The notes under the pieces were generated by a model. That model saw only the letters and a list, made by a program, of their open reading frames with translations, made no database searches and had not been told where the DNA came from. From an uncultured Coriobacteriaceae bacterium (GTDB lineage: Bacteria > Actinomycetota > Coriobacteriia > Coriobacteriales > Atopobiaceae): a stretch of DNA of 41,634 nt. The stretch lies in NCBI GenBank assembly GCA_947426865.1, contig CANEFS010000009.1, positions 1 through 41,634 on the forward strand, written 5' to 3'. Positions 31,942 to 38,318 of this stretch are shown in pieces. Each line of letters opens with the position of its first letter. The stretch's first letter is position 1. A program made the translations under genes and the position numbers.

Positions 31942-32031
31942 ATTCCGGCGCGAGAAAAGAATCCGATTTTGATTCCGCTAAAAGGCGCGGGACGAGAATT
32001 AATTCCGCTGAAAGGCGCGAGAAGAGAATCG
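31942..32031 (+). repeat. 30-nt period repeats upstream of the LPMTG microprotein
   Basis: Three units starting ATTCCG at 31942, 31972 and 32002 share AAAGGCGCG and GAGAAT blocks; the first has an internal gap. Each unit has GATTC and GAATC ends and could form a hairpin. The rest of the 302-nt divergent gap (31771-32072) shows no gene and no clear promoter. Confidence 0.8.
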
Positions 32032-32072
32032 GCTTTATGAACGCTTAGCGCGAAAAAACTGAAAGGACGAAA

Positions 32073-32324
32073 ATGGTTTCTCACAACAATCTGCTCCCCA
32101 TGACAGGCGACATAATCCGAGCGTGGCTGCCCTGGGTGTTGATTGCCGCGGCCATTATTATCCTCATCGTTGTTCTTTGCATTGTGTTCTCGGGCAAGAA
32201 GGCGAAGAAAGCTGATTCTGCTCCTCGGCCTGCTCACAGTGCTGCCGAGAAGGACTCGGGTGCATCTGCTGGAACCGCTGCAAATACTGCTGAATTCGGG
32301 GCACGCAAGATCTCCAAAAAATAG
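32073..32324 (+). CDS. 83-residue membrane microprotein with an N-terminal LPMTG motif
   Basis: The protein begins MVSHNNLLPMTGD, followed by a hydrophobic segment (about 18-41) and the basic run GKKAKK. LPxTG, membrane helix and positive tail in that order are a sortase sorting signal, but here they lie at the N-terminus with only seven residues before the motif and no signal peptide. The last 40 residues are Ala/Ser/Lys-rich. GAAAGGA just before the ATG is a good ribosome site, and a strong terminator follows, so it is probably its own transcript. The function is unknown; LPMTG may be chance or a fossil sorting signal. Confidence 0.75.
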   Translation: MVSHNNLLPMTGDIIRAWLPWVLIAAAIIILIVVLCIVFSGKKAKKADSAPRPAHSAAEKDSGASAGTAANTAEFGARKISKK

Positions 32325-32340
32325 CTGAATGATATAGAGG

Positions 32341-32377
32341 GATGCGAGCTTGCTTCGTGCGAGCTTGCATCTTTTTT
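32341..32377 (+). terminator. Strong terminator after the LPMTG microprotein
   Basis: A 13-bp stem (32341-32353 with 32359-32371, two G-U wobbles) closes a TTCGT loop and is followed by six T residues. This means prfA needs its own promoter in the short gap. Confidence 0.9.
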
Positions 32378-32400
32378 GATGAGGCAACCCGCAATTACTA

Positions 32401-32477
32401 AAACCAAACGAAAACTAACCGAAACCTAATCGAAATCCAACCAAAACCAAACCGAAAACTAACCAAAACTCAACCGA
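32401..32477 (+). repeat. Seven tandem 11-nt repeats in the prfA leader
   Basis: The 77 nt divide exactly into seven 11-mers around the consensus AAACCAACCGA, nearly free of G and T, ending 16 nt before the prfA ATG. The leader should be unstructured. The ribosome site after it (AAGAGAA) is weak. Confidence 0.95.
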
Positions 32478-32493
32478 AAAAGAGAACATAACC

Positions 32494-33561
32494 ATGCCTG
32501 AAAAACTCAAAGCACTTCTCGAAGCTTACGAGGAGCTTGGAAAAAAGCTCCAAGACCCTGCGGTTTACTCGGACCAAAAGGAGTATGCGCGCCTGGCGAA
32601 AGAGTACGCCAACCAGGAGGAACTGGCCAAAAAAGCGCAGGCTTATCTGCAGGCACTCGACGACATTCAAGCGGCCAAGGAGCTCCTGCACGAAGAGACC
32701 GACCCGGACACGAAGGCGCTTTTGCAAGACGAAATTGCGAACAACGAAGCGACTTTGCCCGGGCTGGAAGAAGAAATAAAAATCATGCTTATCCCCGGCG
32801 ACCCCATGGACGAAAAGGACACGATTGTCTCGATTCGCGGTGCGGCGGGCGGCGACGAGGCGGCCATTTTTGGCGGCGATCTTTTCAAGATGTACGAACA
32901 CTTCGCCGAGATAAACGGCTGGAAAATTGAGGTTTTATCGGCCAGCCCTTCCGAGGCCGGCGGTTTCAAAACCATTGAGTTTAAGGTCACAGGCGATAAG
33001 GTTTTCTCGGTCATGAAATACGAATCCGGCGTCCATCGCGTCCAGCGCGTGCCCAAAACCGAGAGCCAAGGCCGCATTCAGACCTCGACAGCGACCGTGT
33101 CCGTGCTGCCCGAAGCCGACGAGATTGATATTCAAATTGACCCCTCTGATCTGCGTATTGACACGTATTGCTCCTCGGGACCGGGCGGCCAGGGTGTCAA
33201 CACGACGTACTCGGCCGTGCGCATCACACATCTGCCTACCAACACGGTCGTGCAGTCGCAGGACCAGCGCTCGCAGATTCAGAATCGCGAGGTCTGCATG
33301 GAGATGCTCCGCGCGCGCCTTTACGAGAAGGAGCTCGAGCGTCAACAGGAAGAGGAAGGCGCCAAGCGTCTAAGTCAGATTGGCCATGGTGACCGTTCCG
33401 AGAAGATCCGCACGTATAACCAGCCGCAAGATCGCGTGACCGACCATCGCATTGGCTTCAACGGGACCTACAACGGCGTGCTGACAGGCGATGGCTTGCC
33501 CGATATTATCGAAGCGCTGGCTGCCGCAGACCGCGCGCAACGACTGGCGAAGACGGTGTAG
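32494..33561 (+). CDS. prfA: Peptide chain release factor 1
   Basis: RF1 reads UAA and UAG stop codons and triggers peptide release. The codon-reading PxT motif appears as PKT in [11 protein letters not shown], and the GGQ motif in [16 protein letters not shown]. The SPF motif of RF2 is absent. At 355 residues it is full length. The ATG at 32494 follows the G-poor repeat leader with a weak AAGAGAA ribosome site. It is followed by prmC, whose product methylates the GGQ glutamine, and tsaC, a common gene order. RF1 abundance bears on the in-frame TAA codons elsewhere in this window. Confidence 0.96.
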
Positions 33562-33609: not shown

Positions 33610-34713
33610 ATGACGACCCTTCAAAATGCCCTGAATGAGGCTTCCTCTTTTCTGCAGGACAGCGGCGAGGAAAATCCCCGCGCGATTGCGGAGATGGTGC
33701 TTTCTTTCGTGACCGGCCTTTCGCGAGTCGAACTCTATCTTTCGCTTGACGAATCCCTGAACGCAGACCAGCTTGCGCGCCTTCAAAAAAATCTCGAGAG
33801 GCGCGCCGCCGGCGAACCTCTGCAATACGTTCTTGGCGAGGCGTCCTTTCGCCACCTCATTCTTAAGACGGGGCTCGGTGTTTTGATTCCGCGTCCCGAG
33901 ACGGAGATTCTTGTGGACGTGGCGATGGAGATGCTGGGGGAGGTGCTTTCTTCTGTGGGCGCGGGCAATCAATGTGACGACGCGCGAAGCGACGCATGCA
34001 GCGACAATTCAGATGAATGCAACGACGCACGCAGTGACAAAAGTAGCGACAGTTCCGGCGACAAGCACGCTAGCCGCACAATCAATATCGCAGATATCGG
34101 CACGGGTACCGGAGCGATTGCGCTCTCGCTTGCCCAGGAGTTGCCCGTTTTTCTCGAGAAAAGCACAAGCGCCAAATCCACCCCAACGAACCCATGCACC
34201 ATGCCTCACCTACATTTATATGCGTCTGACATTTCTTCGCGCGCACTCGAGTTAGTAAAAGAGAATGCCCGCGCGCTGGAACCAGAAGCGCTGGCGCCAC
34301 GTGCTTGCGTGCACTTTCTTGAAAGTGACCTTTTTGCGCACTATCCCGCCGAACTTTGCGGCCATCTCGACTTGATTGTGAGCAATCCGCCTTACATTCC
34401 AGATTCTGTGCTTGAGCAGGAAGTCCCGGCAGAGGTCAAAGAGTATGAACCTTGGGAGGCGCTTTCCGGAGGCGCAGATGGCCTGGAGATTTTCCGTCGT
34501 CTGGCAAAAGAAGCGCGCGCATGGTTGAAGGATGGCGGAGCGCTTTGCGTCGAGCTTTTCGAAGACTCCTTGGACGATGCGGCCGACTTCTTACGAGAAG
34601 AAAACGGGAACGCTGACGGTGCGCGTTGGGCGGATATTTCGGTTACGAAAGATTTGACGGGACGCCCGCGGATCCTGTCAGCTCGTCTGACAAAGCCCTC
34701 GCGCGCCCTTTAG
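33610..34713 (+). CDS. prmC: Release factor glutamine methyltransferase
   Basis: PrmC transfers a methyl group from S-adenosylmethionine to the GGQ glutamine of release factors. The SAM-binding block IADIGTGTGAIALSLAQ and the catalytic DLIVSNPPYIPD are present. Between the N-terminal helical domain and the SAM fold, about residues 121-156 are an Asp/Ser/Asn-rich low-complexity insert (DARSD, CSDNSD repeats) absent from typical family members. I start at the ATG at 33610; a GTG at 33562, directly after the prfA stop, would add 16 residues. It is coupled to prfA. Confidence 0.94.
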   Translation: MTTLQNALNEASSFLQDSGEENPRAIAEMVLSFVTGLSRVELYLSLDESLNADQLARLQKNLERRAAGEPLQYVLGEASFRHLILKTGLGVLIPRPETEILVDVAMEMLGEVLSSVGAGNQCDDARSDACSDNSDECNDARSDKSSDSSGDKHASRTINIADIGTGTGAIALSLAQELPVFLEKSTSAKSTPTNPCTMPHLHLYASDISSRALELVKENARALEPEALAPRACVHFLESDLFAHYPAELCGHLDLIVSNPPYIPDSVLEQEVPAEVKEYEPWEALSGGADGLEIFRRLAKEARAWLKDGGALCVELFEDSLDDAADFLREENGNADGARWADISVTKDLTGRPRILSARLTKPSRAL

Positions 34714-35759: not shown

Positions 35760-38318
35760 ATGGCAAACCAACCCTCACTCAACAACATCCCCGCGCACAT
35801 CCAAGAAGCGCTCGCTCTCAACACGCTGAATCCCGCGCAGCTGAAGGCCGTCCTTTGCACCGAGGGACCGCTGCTCGTTTTGGCAGGCGCCGGCTCCGGC
35901 AAGACGCGCGTCCTCACCACGCGCATCGCCTACATGATTGCCACTCTGGGCGTCCAGCCCTACCAAATCCTTGCCATCACCTTCACGAACAAGGCCGCCA
36001 CAGAGATGCGCGAGCGCCTGCAATCGCAGCTCGCCGGCTACGTCCGAGGCATGTGGGTCTGCACCTTCCACGCCATGTGCGTGCGCATCTTGCGCGAGGA
36101 TGGCGAGAAGCTGGGTTTCTCGGCAAACTTCACCATCTATGACGATGATGACTCAAAACGCCTGATAAAAGCTATCATGAGTGACCTGTCCATTGACACG
36201 AAATCGTTCGATCCCAACTCGATTCGCGCCCAAATAAGCGCTGCCAAAAACAAACTTATAACGCCTGCCGAGTTCGCTGACAGCGCAACCTCTCCCATGG
36301 AAGAGGCCGCCGCCAAGGTTTACGAGGAGCTGCAGGAGCGCCTCTTCAAGCAAAACGCGATGGACTTCGACGACCTTCTCGTCAACACGCACCGTCTCTT
36401 CTCGAAATTCCCCGACGTGCTCGCGCGCTACCAGGAGCGTTTTGCCTATATCAGCGTCGACGAGTATCAGGACACGAACCACGTTCAGTACGCCCTCACC
36501 AACATGCTCGCCGGCGAGAAGCGCAACCTCATGGTGGTAGGCGACGACGACCAGTCGATTTACTCCTGGCGCGGCGCCGATATCCAAAACATCCTCGATT
36601 TCGAGAAGGACTACCCGGAAGCCGCCGCCATTAAGCTGCAGCAAAACTACCGCTCGACCGGCCACATTTTGAACGCAGCAAACGCCGTCGTGGTGCACAA
36701 TGCCGGCCGTCGCGAGAAGGAACTGTTCACGACCGCCGGCGCGGGCGAGCTCATCCACGCCTACCAGGCAAGCGATGAGCGCGACGAGGGCCGCTGGATC
36801 GCCTCGGAGGCGGAGCGGCTGAATCGCGAGGGCATTTCCTACGATGACATGGCCGTTTTCTACCGCACGAACGTGCAGAGCCGCGTGCTGGAGGACATGT
36901 TCTTGCGCGCCGGAGTCCCCTACAAAATCGTGGGCGGCACGCGCTTTTTCGACCGCGCCGAGATCCGCGACGTGATGGCGTATCTGAAGCTCGTCCTCAA
37001 TCCGGCCGACGACGTCTCCGCCCGCCGCGTCATCAACGTCCCCCGCCGAGGCATCGGCGCCACCTCCATCGACAAAATATCTGCCTTCGCCGCCCAAAAC
37101 GACTTGAGCTTTTTTGAAGCCTGCGTTGCCTGCGTGGCAGAAACCGATCTTCTTTCTCCCAAAGTCCGAGAAGCCCTTGCCACTTGGACCTCCAACATTG
37201 AGGCGGCGCGCCACTACACCGGCGACTTGGCGAGCGTTATCGAGATGGTCGTGGAAAAGGCCGGCATCATCGACGCGCTTGAGCAGCAGTTGGGGCCGGA
37301 CGCGCAGGGGCGCCTGGAAAACATTCGAGAGTTCTTGCTGATTGCTAAAGAGTTTGACGAGAGTCACGAAGACATCATCTCCAACTTGGAATCGATGGCG
37401 GAGTTGCGCCGCGCCGGTGTGGAAGGAGTGCCGAAAGAAGGCGCCCCATCGCCCGCCGCCCTCGCTCCCGCCCCTGCGCTGTCGGCCGCCGCCCTCGCTC
37501 CCGCCCCTGCGCTGTCGGCCGCCGCCCTCGCTCCCGCCCCTTCCGCAGCTCCAGGCACACCCCTAGACGGCTCTTTTCCTAACGTCGCCACCACATCAAC
37601 CCCCCAAGACGACTACGCCGACCTTAAAGTCGCCGCCCAAAAGCTCCCCGCTTTTCTCGAGTGGCTCGCCCTTAGAAGCGACCTCGACAATTTGTCCGGT
37701 CATGCGACGGCCGTTACCCTTATGACGATTCACTCGGCCAAGGGCCTGGAGTTTCCGGTTGTTTTTGTTGCCGGGCTTGAAGAGGGCCTTTTTCCCAATC
37801 TTCTTTTCGACAACGACCCTGCCAAGCTGGAAGAGGAGCGCCGCCTCGCCTACGTGGCCATCACCCGGGCGCGCCGGAAGCTTTTCCTCACTTACGCTTC
37901 TAGCCGGCGCACCTACGGCTCCACGACGGCTAACCCTCGCAGTCGTTTTGTCGGCGAGATTCCCGACGCAGACATCACGCTTACCGGCGTTGGCTCGGCC
38001 GGTTTTTCGGGCTGGGGCTGGGAGAAACGCGGCGACCGCCATGGCATGTACGGCACGGGCGGAGACCTGTATGGCTCGGATGGAGGAGTAGTGTTTGGCG
38101 GCGGCTCGCACCAGGAAAGCGCCGCTTCCCGGTCTGAGGCCTCCTCGACTTCCGCTCAAGAGACCTTCGAGAAAGGCGATCTCGTCCATCACAAAATTTT
38201 TGGCAACGGGGTCGTGATGGAAGTGAAGGGCGACGAGCTGACCGTCCATTTCGAGAAAACCAACAAAACGAAGCGCCTCTTAAGAACCTTCGCACCTCTC
38301 GTAAAAATCGAAAAATAG
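35760..38318 (+). CDS. pcrA: UvrD/PcrA-type ATP-dependent DNA helicase
   Basis: A superfamily 1 3'-5' helicase for repair and replication-fork upkeep. Motifs: Q-motif region LNPAQLKAV, Walker A AGAGSGKTR (42-50), TFTNKAATEM, VDEYQDTN (Walker B), VVGDDDQSIYSWRGA, QNYRST, TIHSAKGLEFPVVF and VAITRAR. The C-terminal FEKGDLVHHKIFGNGVV is the Tudor-like RNA-polymerase-binding domain of PcrA. About residues 560-604, in the 2B region, are an Ala/Pro repeat (ALAPAPALSAA) missing from homologues. The ATG at 35760 follows AAAGGAA. At 852 residues it is somewhat longer than usual because of the insert and a Gly-rich linker. Confidence 0.95.
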   Translation: MANQPSLNNIPAHIQEALALNTLNPAQLKAVLCTEGPLLVLAGAGSGKTRVLTTRIAYMIATLGVQPYQILAITFTNKAATEMRERLQSQLAGYVRGMWVCTFHAMCVRILREDGEKLGFSANFTIYDDDDSKRLIKAIMSDLSIDTKSFDPNSIRAQISAAKNKLITPAEFADSATSPMEEAAAKVYEELQERLFKQNAMDFDDLLVNTHRLFSKFPDVLARYQERFAYISVDEYQDTNHVQYALTNMLAGEKRNLMVVGDDDQSIYSWRGADIQNILDFEKDYPEAAAIKLQQNYRSTGHILNAANAVVVHNAGRREKELFTTAGAGELIHAYQASDERDEGRWIASEAERLNREGISYDDMAVFYRTNVQSRVLEDMFLRAGVPYKIVGGTRFFDRAEIRDVMAYLKLVLNPADDVSARRVINVPRRGIGATSIDKISAFAAQNDLSFFEACVACVAETDLLSPKVREALATWTSNIEAARHYTGDLASVIEMVVEKAGIIDALEQQLGPDAQGRLENIREFLLIAKEFDESHEDIISNLESMAELRRAGVEGVPKEGAPSPAALAPAPALSAAALAPAPALSAAALAPAPSAAPGTPLDGSFPNVATTSTPQDDYADLKVAAQKLPAFLEWLALRSDLDNLSGHATAVTLMTIHSAKGLEFPVVFVAGLEEGLFPNLLFDNDPAKLEEERRLAYVAITRARRKLFLTYASSRRTYGSTTANPRSRFVGEIPDADITLTGVGSAGFSGWGWEKRGDRHGMYGTGGDLYGSDGGVVFGGGSHQESAASRSEASSTSAQETFEKGDLVHHKIFGNGVVMEVKGDELTVHFEKTNKTKRLLRTFAPLVKIEK
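37453..37541 (+). repeat. 33-nt tandem repeat in pcrA
   Basis: A 33-nt unit containing CTCGCTCCCGCCCCTGCGCT is repeated with exact identity (phases at 37461, 37494 and 37527, the last partial). It encodes 11-residue ALAPAPALSAA units. Confidence 0.95.

Follow-up and report, generated by a model that had tools for sequence, protein, structure and literature searches.

A phased 11-nt tandem array upstream of prfA as one member of a genome-wide class of A-rich leaders in an uncultured Coriobacteriaceae bacterium

The prfA leader, its setting and its relatives

Why should seven copies of an 11-nt sequence stand immediately before the gene for a release factor? The gene, prfA (32494..33561, + strand), lies in a 41,634-nt stretch of DNA (the window) and encodes peptide chain release factor 1 (RF1, 355 aa), as assigned by the NCBIfam equivalogs NF001859 and TIGR00019, both over cut-off; its start codon agrees with that of aligned family members. 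The next gene model (33610..34713, + strand) is prmC, for release factor glutamine methyltransferase (NCBIfam TIGR03534, over cut-off). Reading the sequence directly, we found seven units of exactly 11 nt each, in exact phase, at 32400-32476 (+ strand): AAAACCAAACG, AAAACTAACCG, AAACCTAATCG, AAATCCAACCA, AAACCAAACCG, AAAACTAACCA and AAACTCAACCG. A decayed eighth unit, AAAAAGAGAAC (32477..32487, + strand), contains a weak SD-like sequence, AAAGAGAA (32479-32486), as judged by direct reading and duplex energy, and is followed by ATAACC and then by the ATG at 32494. A first-pass annotation had claimed seven perfect-phase repeats before prfA, and direct reading, TRF and lag statistics all bear this out. 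It had placed them at 32401-32493; the location is right, but the 5' end is one base late and the 3' end takes in the ribosome site and the spacer. Its consensus, AAACCAACCGA, is a one-position rotation of the register used here, AAAACYAACCG. Columns 1-3, 7, 8 and 10 (AAA...AA.C), 6/11 in all, are invariant, and columns 4, 5, 6, 9 and 11 vary. Together, the array and the eighth unit (88 nt) are composed of 57% A, 28% C, 8% G and 7% T, in keeping with an earlier description of the repeats as G-poor and T-poor.

TRF detected the array at periods of 11, 22 and 33, with 76-80% matches and scores of 83-100. Identity was 0.675 at lag 11 and higher, 0.727, at lag 22. None of 20,000 dinucleotide shuffles reached the lag-11 identity of the array at lag 11, and only 1/20,000 reached that value at any lag from 5 to 30, which places the array beyond chance; with head-to-tail copies of this kind, it qualifies as a tandem repeat array (minisatellite). 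Units 1-2 are similar to units 5-6. This similarity, together with the higher identity at lag 22, suggests from the sequence that the array may have grown in more than one duplication step.

The strong terminator that had been noted upstream was confirmed. It belongs to a small gene (32073-32324) with no NCBIfam match, and is an intrinsic terminator at 32339..32377 (+ strand), with a 15-bp stem and a 5-nt loop (32339-32373), a predicted fold of -24.6 kcal/mol and a T run at 32372-32377; a simple terminator pattern scan missed the hairpin, which was revealed by folding and direct reading. A weak sigma-70-like promoter candidate at 32376..32404 (+ strand), consisting of TTGATG (32376-32381), 17 nt and TAAAAC (32399-32404), matched at 4/6 and 4/6 positions in our own scan, and a stricter scan found no good promoter between the terminator and prfA. 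The RNA start predicted for this putative promoter, around 32411, falls inside the array, in the first or second unit, so that the array would make up most of the leader. A 16-codon ORF has its ATG adjoining the terminator T run and its TAA within the array, and no SD-like sequence was found upstream of this ATG. A search of 32000-32700 gave no Rfam match at E<=1 to a structured leader RNA or riboswitch, and a known RNA family was rejected on this ground. The upstream small gene is itself preceded by an intergenic tandem duplication of a 30-nt unit (31972..32029, + strand; 1.9 copies by TRF), which is another case of the genome-wide duplication phenomenon described below.

Is the array a conserved feature of prfA? 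The genome that carries it (1.04 Mb, 94% complete) was the sole member of its genus in the comparison. The array was found in 0/86 distinct Atopobiaceae prfA leaders, in which the A fraction reached at most 0.32 (0.56 in the present leader) and the lag-11 identity at most 0.36 (0.65 in the present leader). The leaders of the family carry instead a TGGTA/GGTAT-type sequence (49/86) and a GGAG/AAGGA-type SD (77/86). A DNA search with the array over 140 family genomes returned matches in its own genome and chance-level ones only. A conserved prfA regulatory leader was rejected on the strength of these two results. The leader trait was also absent from G010, a small partial genome, although G010 shares a dispersed motif with the present one.

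The array might still act as a copy-number switch, a length-variable tuner of RF1 as had been proposed, and a tandem repeat directly 5' of a start codon is what such a switch would look like. However, the lag-11 identity puts the likeness of adjacent units at only about 68%, at which slippage should be slow; the copies are degenerate, unlike those of a hypervariable perfect repeat; no family member has the array; and leaders of the same kind stand before many unrelated genes. We regard this proposal as hardly credible. Nor did we find anything that links the array to stop readthrough, for which it had been thought relevant. Genes in this genome end in TAA (54%), TAG (39%) or TGA (7%), such that RF1 can terminate about 93% of them. 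The relatives sampled also make heavy use of TAG (30-70%), and high dependence on RF1 is not unusual among them. A second, prfB-like release-factor gene is present at C21:8714, and this, together with the TAG-heavy relatives, led us to reject an unusual stop code. TGA terminates only 7% of genes, as compared with 32% of stop triplets in intergenic DNA.

A-rich, repeat-built leaders across the genome

The genome was pieced together from stretches (99% covered), and its genes were called by a simple method based on ORFs and codon usage, with a bonus for an SD. For comparison, 200-400 kb from each of five relatives, three of them with higher GC, were treated with the same gene calling. Between positions -75 and -15, the leaders of this genome had A 0.36 and T 0.21, while A was 0.20-0.28 in the relatives. 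On the sense strand, A-T exceeded 0.25 in 81 leaders (20%) as opposed to 1 with the reverse skew, and in 0-4% of leaders in the relatives. Periodic leaders (p<=0.005) numbered 51-52/396 (13%) where 2 were expected, as against 0-6% in the relatives. Each periodic leader is made of its own unrelated unit, with individual lags of about 7-24 nt; the mean leader autocorrelation has a broad peak (9-14) at 11-12 nt. Periodic and A-skewed leaders overlapped beyond expectation (odds ratio 3, p 0.001), yet the majority of A-skewed leaders are non-periodic, and periodicity and A skew are thus two linked but separable traits. The correlation between leader A+C and codon adaptation was weak (rho 0.15, p 0.003, with a small reference set). 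As picked out by eye, the most A+C-rich leaders are those before glyS, a heavy-metal ATPase, sdaA, prfA, proC, purC, porG, fusA, hpt, metK, dnaK, lysS, ychF, clpB, rpoC and groES, which are ordinary housekeeping genes.

By sequence, the prfA array is most closely related to the ychF leader, in the proximal half of the latter (77% over 53 bp). The ychF leader (C10:32932-33200) has about 12 units, with AAACCTTACCAA every ~21 nt (one gap is larger), and these grade into 11-nt AGACCTAACCAA units adjoining the start. Other near kin are found at C12:15459-15492 and in the fusA leader at C1:18953. The prfA unit itself is rare elsewhere in the genome, for which reason a dispersed binding motif was rejected. 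The prfA array is neither prfA-specific nor conserved; it is one striking member of a genome-wide leader class. A neat phased repeat in front of a single gene can be just one product of a process that acts across the genome and not a dedicated regulator.

These observations bear on an idea raised in the first-pass annotation, that of a helically phased protein-binding array. On this idea, prfA transcription would be controlled by AAA tracts every 11 bp, through curvature of the DNA or through a protein bound along one side of the helix. Every unit opens with AAA, the phase is exact, and the autocorrelation peak of the leaders genome-wide lies close to the same spacing. However, the sister leaders have many other periods, from 7 to 24 nt, and unrelated units, and the unit lacks the scatter expected of a binding site: AACCAACC occurs in 4 intergenic regions and AAACCTAACC in 2. 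Moreover, the helical repeat of DNA is 10.5 bp, and a spacing of 11.0 bp drifts out of register. The bias also follows the strand of the downstream gene, and a site acting at the level of DNA would have no need of this. Phased binding or curvature is therefore very unlikely.

Where do the repeats come from? Intergenic tandem arrays are 2-5 times denser in this genome than in the five relatives (126 against 25-58 per 100 kb), and exact tandem 7-mer matches at 9-14 nt show an excess over shuffles of 17 per 10 kb, compared with 3.7-6.0 in the relatives. Coding tandem arrays are within the range of the relatives and are mostly in frame. Between convergent genes, where no leader exists, arrays are about as common (120 per 100 kb), which points to a mutational source. 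These convergent-gene arrays show no A bias (A 0.17, T 0.33, from only 12 arrays), in contrast to arrays oriented to the nearest downstream gene (A 0.42, T 0.16). Where a -10 element could be recognised (only 44 leaders), the A-over-T skew sets in downstream of it. This position, and an A bias that follows the orientation of the downstream gene, suggest a role as RNA.

The prfA array could be a purely neutral by-product of slippage that leaves prfA unaffected, as tandem duplications are in excess in every intergenic class, the convergent one included. In addition, no MutS scored over its cut-off either in this genome or in 29 relatives, and slippage may escape repair. Since mutS is missing from the relatives too, its absence cannot explain the repeat richness of this genome alone, and loss of mismatch repair was rejected as a special cause. 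Against neutrality, A strongly exceeds T on the sense strand of the leader arrays but not in the convergent arrays, and 8% G with 7% T over 88 nt is unexpected from random duplication of average DNA. We consider neutrality unlikely. The arrays resemble bacterial minisatellites and VNTR loci in being intergenic and made of head-to-tail units of about 10-30 nt; they differ in that the copies are degenerate, that every locus repeats a unit of its own and that the leader copies are A-rich on the sense strand.

A proposed role of the prfA leader in ribosome loading

The ribosome site of prfA had been described as weak, and this was borne out by a duplex energy of -2.9 kcal/mol, the genome median being -5.5 kcal/mol. 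The last 80 nt of the leader have a predicted MFE of -1.2 kcal/mol, rank 9 of 396 leaders, making it one of low structure according to the folding model. This value is equalled by shuffles of the leader itself; the openness is thus explained by composition alone. Within the last 88 nt the A fraction is 0.56, an enrichment on the sense strand. Throughout this genome, an SD at or below -5 kcal/mol precedes 51% of genes, as compared with 68-81% in relatives, and a protein with four S1 domains is encoded. No correlation was found within the genome between SD strength and leader A content, and a simple compensation for a weak SD was rejected as an explanation.

In E. coli, an A-rich stretch 5' of the start codon stimulates initiation, and S1 has been proposed as its possible reader (PMC7043885). 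The effect was tested within ~15-20 nt of the start and was abolished when As were changed to Cs (PMC7043885). Being short-range and lost on A-to-C change, it does not directly cover the C-rich distal part of the prfA leader.

We favour, as the probable explanation, a degenerate minisatellite produced by short tandem duplications and retained as an unstructured A/C-rich leader that aids ribosome loading. Of the three ideas put forward earlier, an unstructured translation enhancer is accordingly the one that best fits the predicted low structure and the genome-wide A-rich leader bias. The sequence would have come from repeated short duplications, of a kind unusually abundant between the genes of this genome. 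Its composition, A/C-rich and G/T-poor with almost no predicted RNA structure, would make it suitable as the prfA 5' leader and would then be maintained. Such a leader would keep the weak ribosome site single-stranded and would offer an A-rich landing surface for the 30S subunit, probably via protein S1. Composition and openness would matter; the unit sequence, the exact phase, the copy number and RF1 itself probably would not. We infer duplication as the source, transcription of the leader and assistance to initiation, the last from the weak prfA SD, the reduced use of SD genome-wide, the S1-domain protein and the E. coli finding (PMC7043885). One observation sits less easily with this explanation: the 11-nt phase is exact over seven units despite sequence drift, and a constraint on composition alone would not call for such phasing.

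The main functional rival is a Rho-binding (rut) leader. Rho would load on the untranslated prfA RNA, a C-rich, G-poor and unstructured stretch of 77 nt with cytosines every 11 nt, and transcription of RF1 would continue only with prompt ribosome loading. The RhoTermPredict search rule looks for 78 nt in which C exceeds G and a cytosine recurs every 11-13 nt (PMC6407284). With 24 C and 5 G in 78 nt, the prfA leader conforms to it, spacing included; the genome encodes Rho; and a strict version of the rule picks out eight leaders on the sense strand, 0 on the antisense strand and 0 on the sense strand in the five relatives. The leader class as a whole, however, is A-rich and not C-over-G (C 0.22, G 0.21), an equally large C excess occurs in about 1% of all 88-nt windows of the genome, and any A/C-rich leader satisfies the rule through its composition. 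The prfA array is like rut sites as described (PMC6407284) in length (~78 nt), C>G content, predicted lack of structure and cytosine spacing, and differs from them in being A-dominated and placed directly before a start codon. A rut function for the leader seems quite improbable.

An A/C-rich leader that would aid ribosome loading has parallels in Bacteroidetes and Mycoplasma, whose leaders are A-rich and SD-poor (PMC3155529, PMC6847099, PMC7043885). Shared with these are the A enrichment upstream of the start, the low structure, the weak SD at prfA and the reduced SD use genome-wide. The present genome differs in that it still has an SD in about half its genes, that the enrichment extends ~100 nt upstream, that C is high at prfA and that the leaders are built from tandem repeats. 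A more tentative extension, which we think possible and no better than that, is that this reduced-genome Atopobiaceae lineage moved initiation partly from SD pairing to long A-rich leaders, built repeatedly and independently by 9-14-nt duplication. Slippage would then be raw material for ribosome-loading sites, with prfA among the clearest examples. If so, non-SD A-rich leaders would be arising in a lineage whose relatives retain strong SD, with tandem duplication as their maker.

Other repeats in the genome and in the window

Repeats of other kinds were also observed. A dispersed motif, GNNTTTCTCGGCA, has the form G-N-N-TTTCTCGGCA with the core TTTCTCGG (for example at C1:4274 and C17:10774-10819). 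The most over-represented 8-mer of the genome lies within it, with 688 copies where 83 are expected under a second-order Markov model. The 13-mer pattern occurs 98 times, 49 per strand, as opposed to 1 for the reversed control. It is enriched also in G010 (58), G001 (37), G025 (24) and G141, of another family (240), and is rare in most other relatives. Within genes the motif is more often antisense (383) than sense (197). From its sequence it looks like a DNA uptake sequence or a Chi-like site. A palindrome with the same core, TTCTCGAGAA, gave 38 counts over both strands (0.6 expected), in 17 intergenic regions; possibly, it represents paired inverted copies that act as terminators.

A further dispersed repeat, with AAAAGTGGTGTAA and CTAGACACACTTT/TTTTGTCCTATAACCC, is present as a single copy per region in 14-15 intergenic regions and is perhaps the end of a small mobile element. 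An element with GCGCCACCTGCGGTAACGCCC has 8 copies, in 8 intergenic regions. Finally, within the window, positions 37449-37541 hold 2.8 copies, 98% perfect, of a 33-nt in-frame repeat, TCGGCCGCCGCCCTCGCTCCCGCCCCTGCGCTG, inside an 852-aa helicase-like ORF (35760-38318); this probably reflects a recent duplication that kept the frame and produced an Ala/Pro-rich linker.
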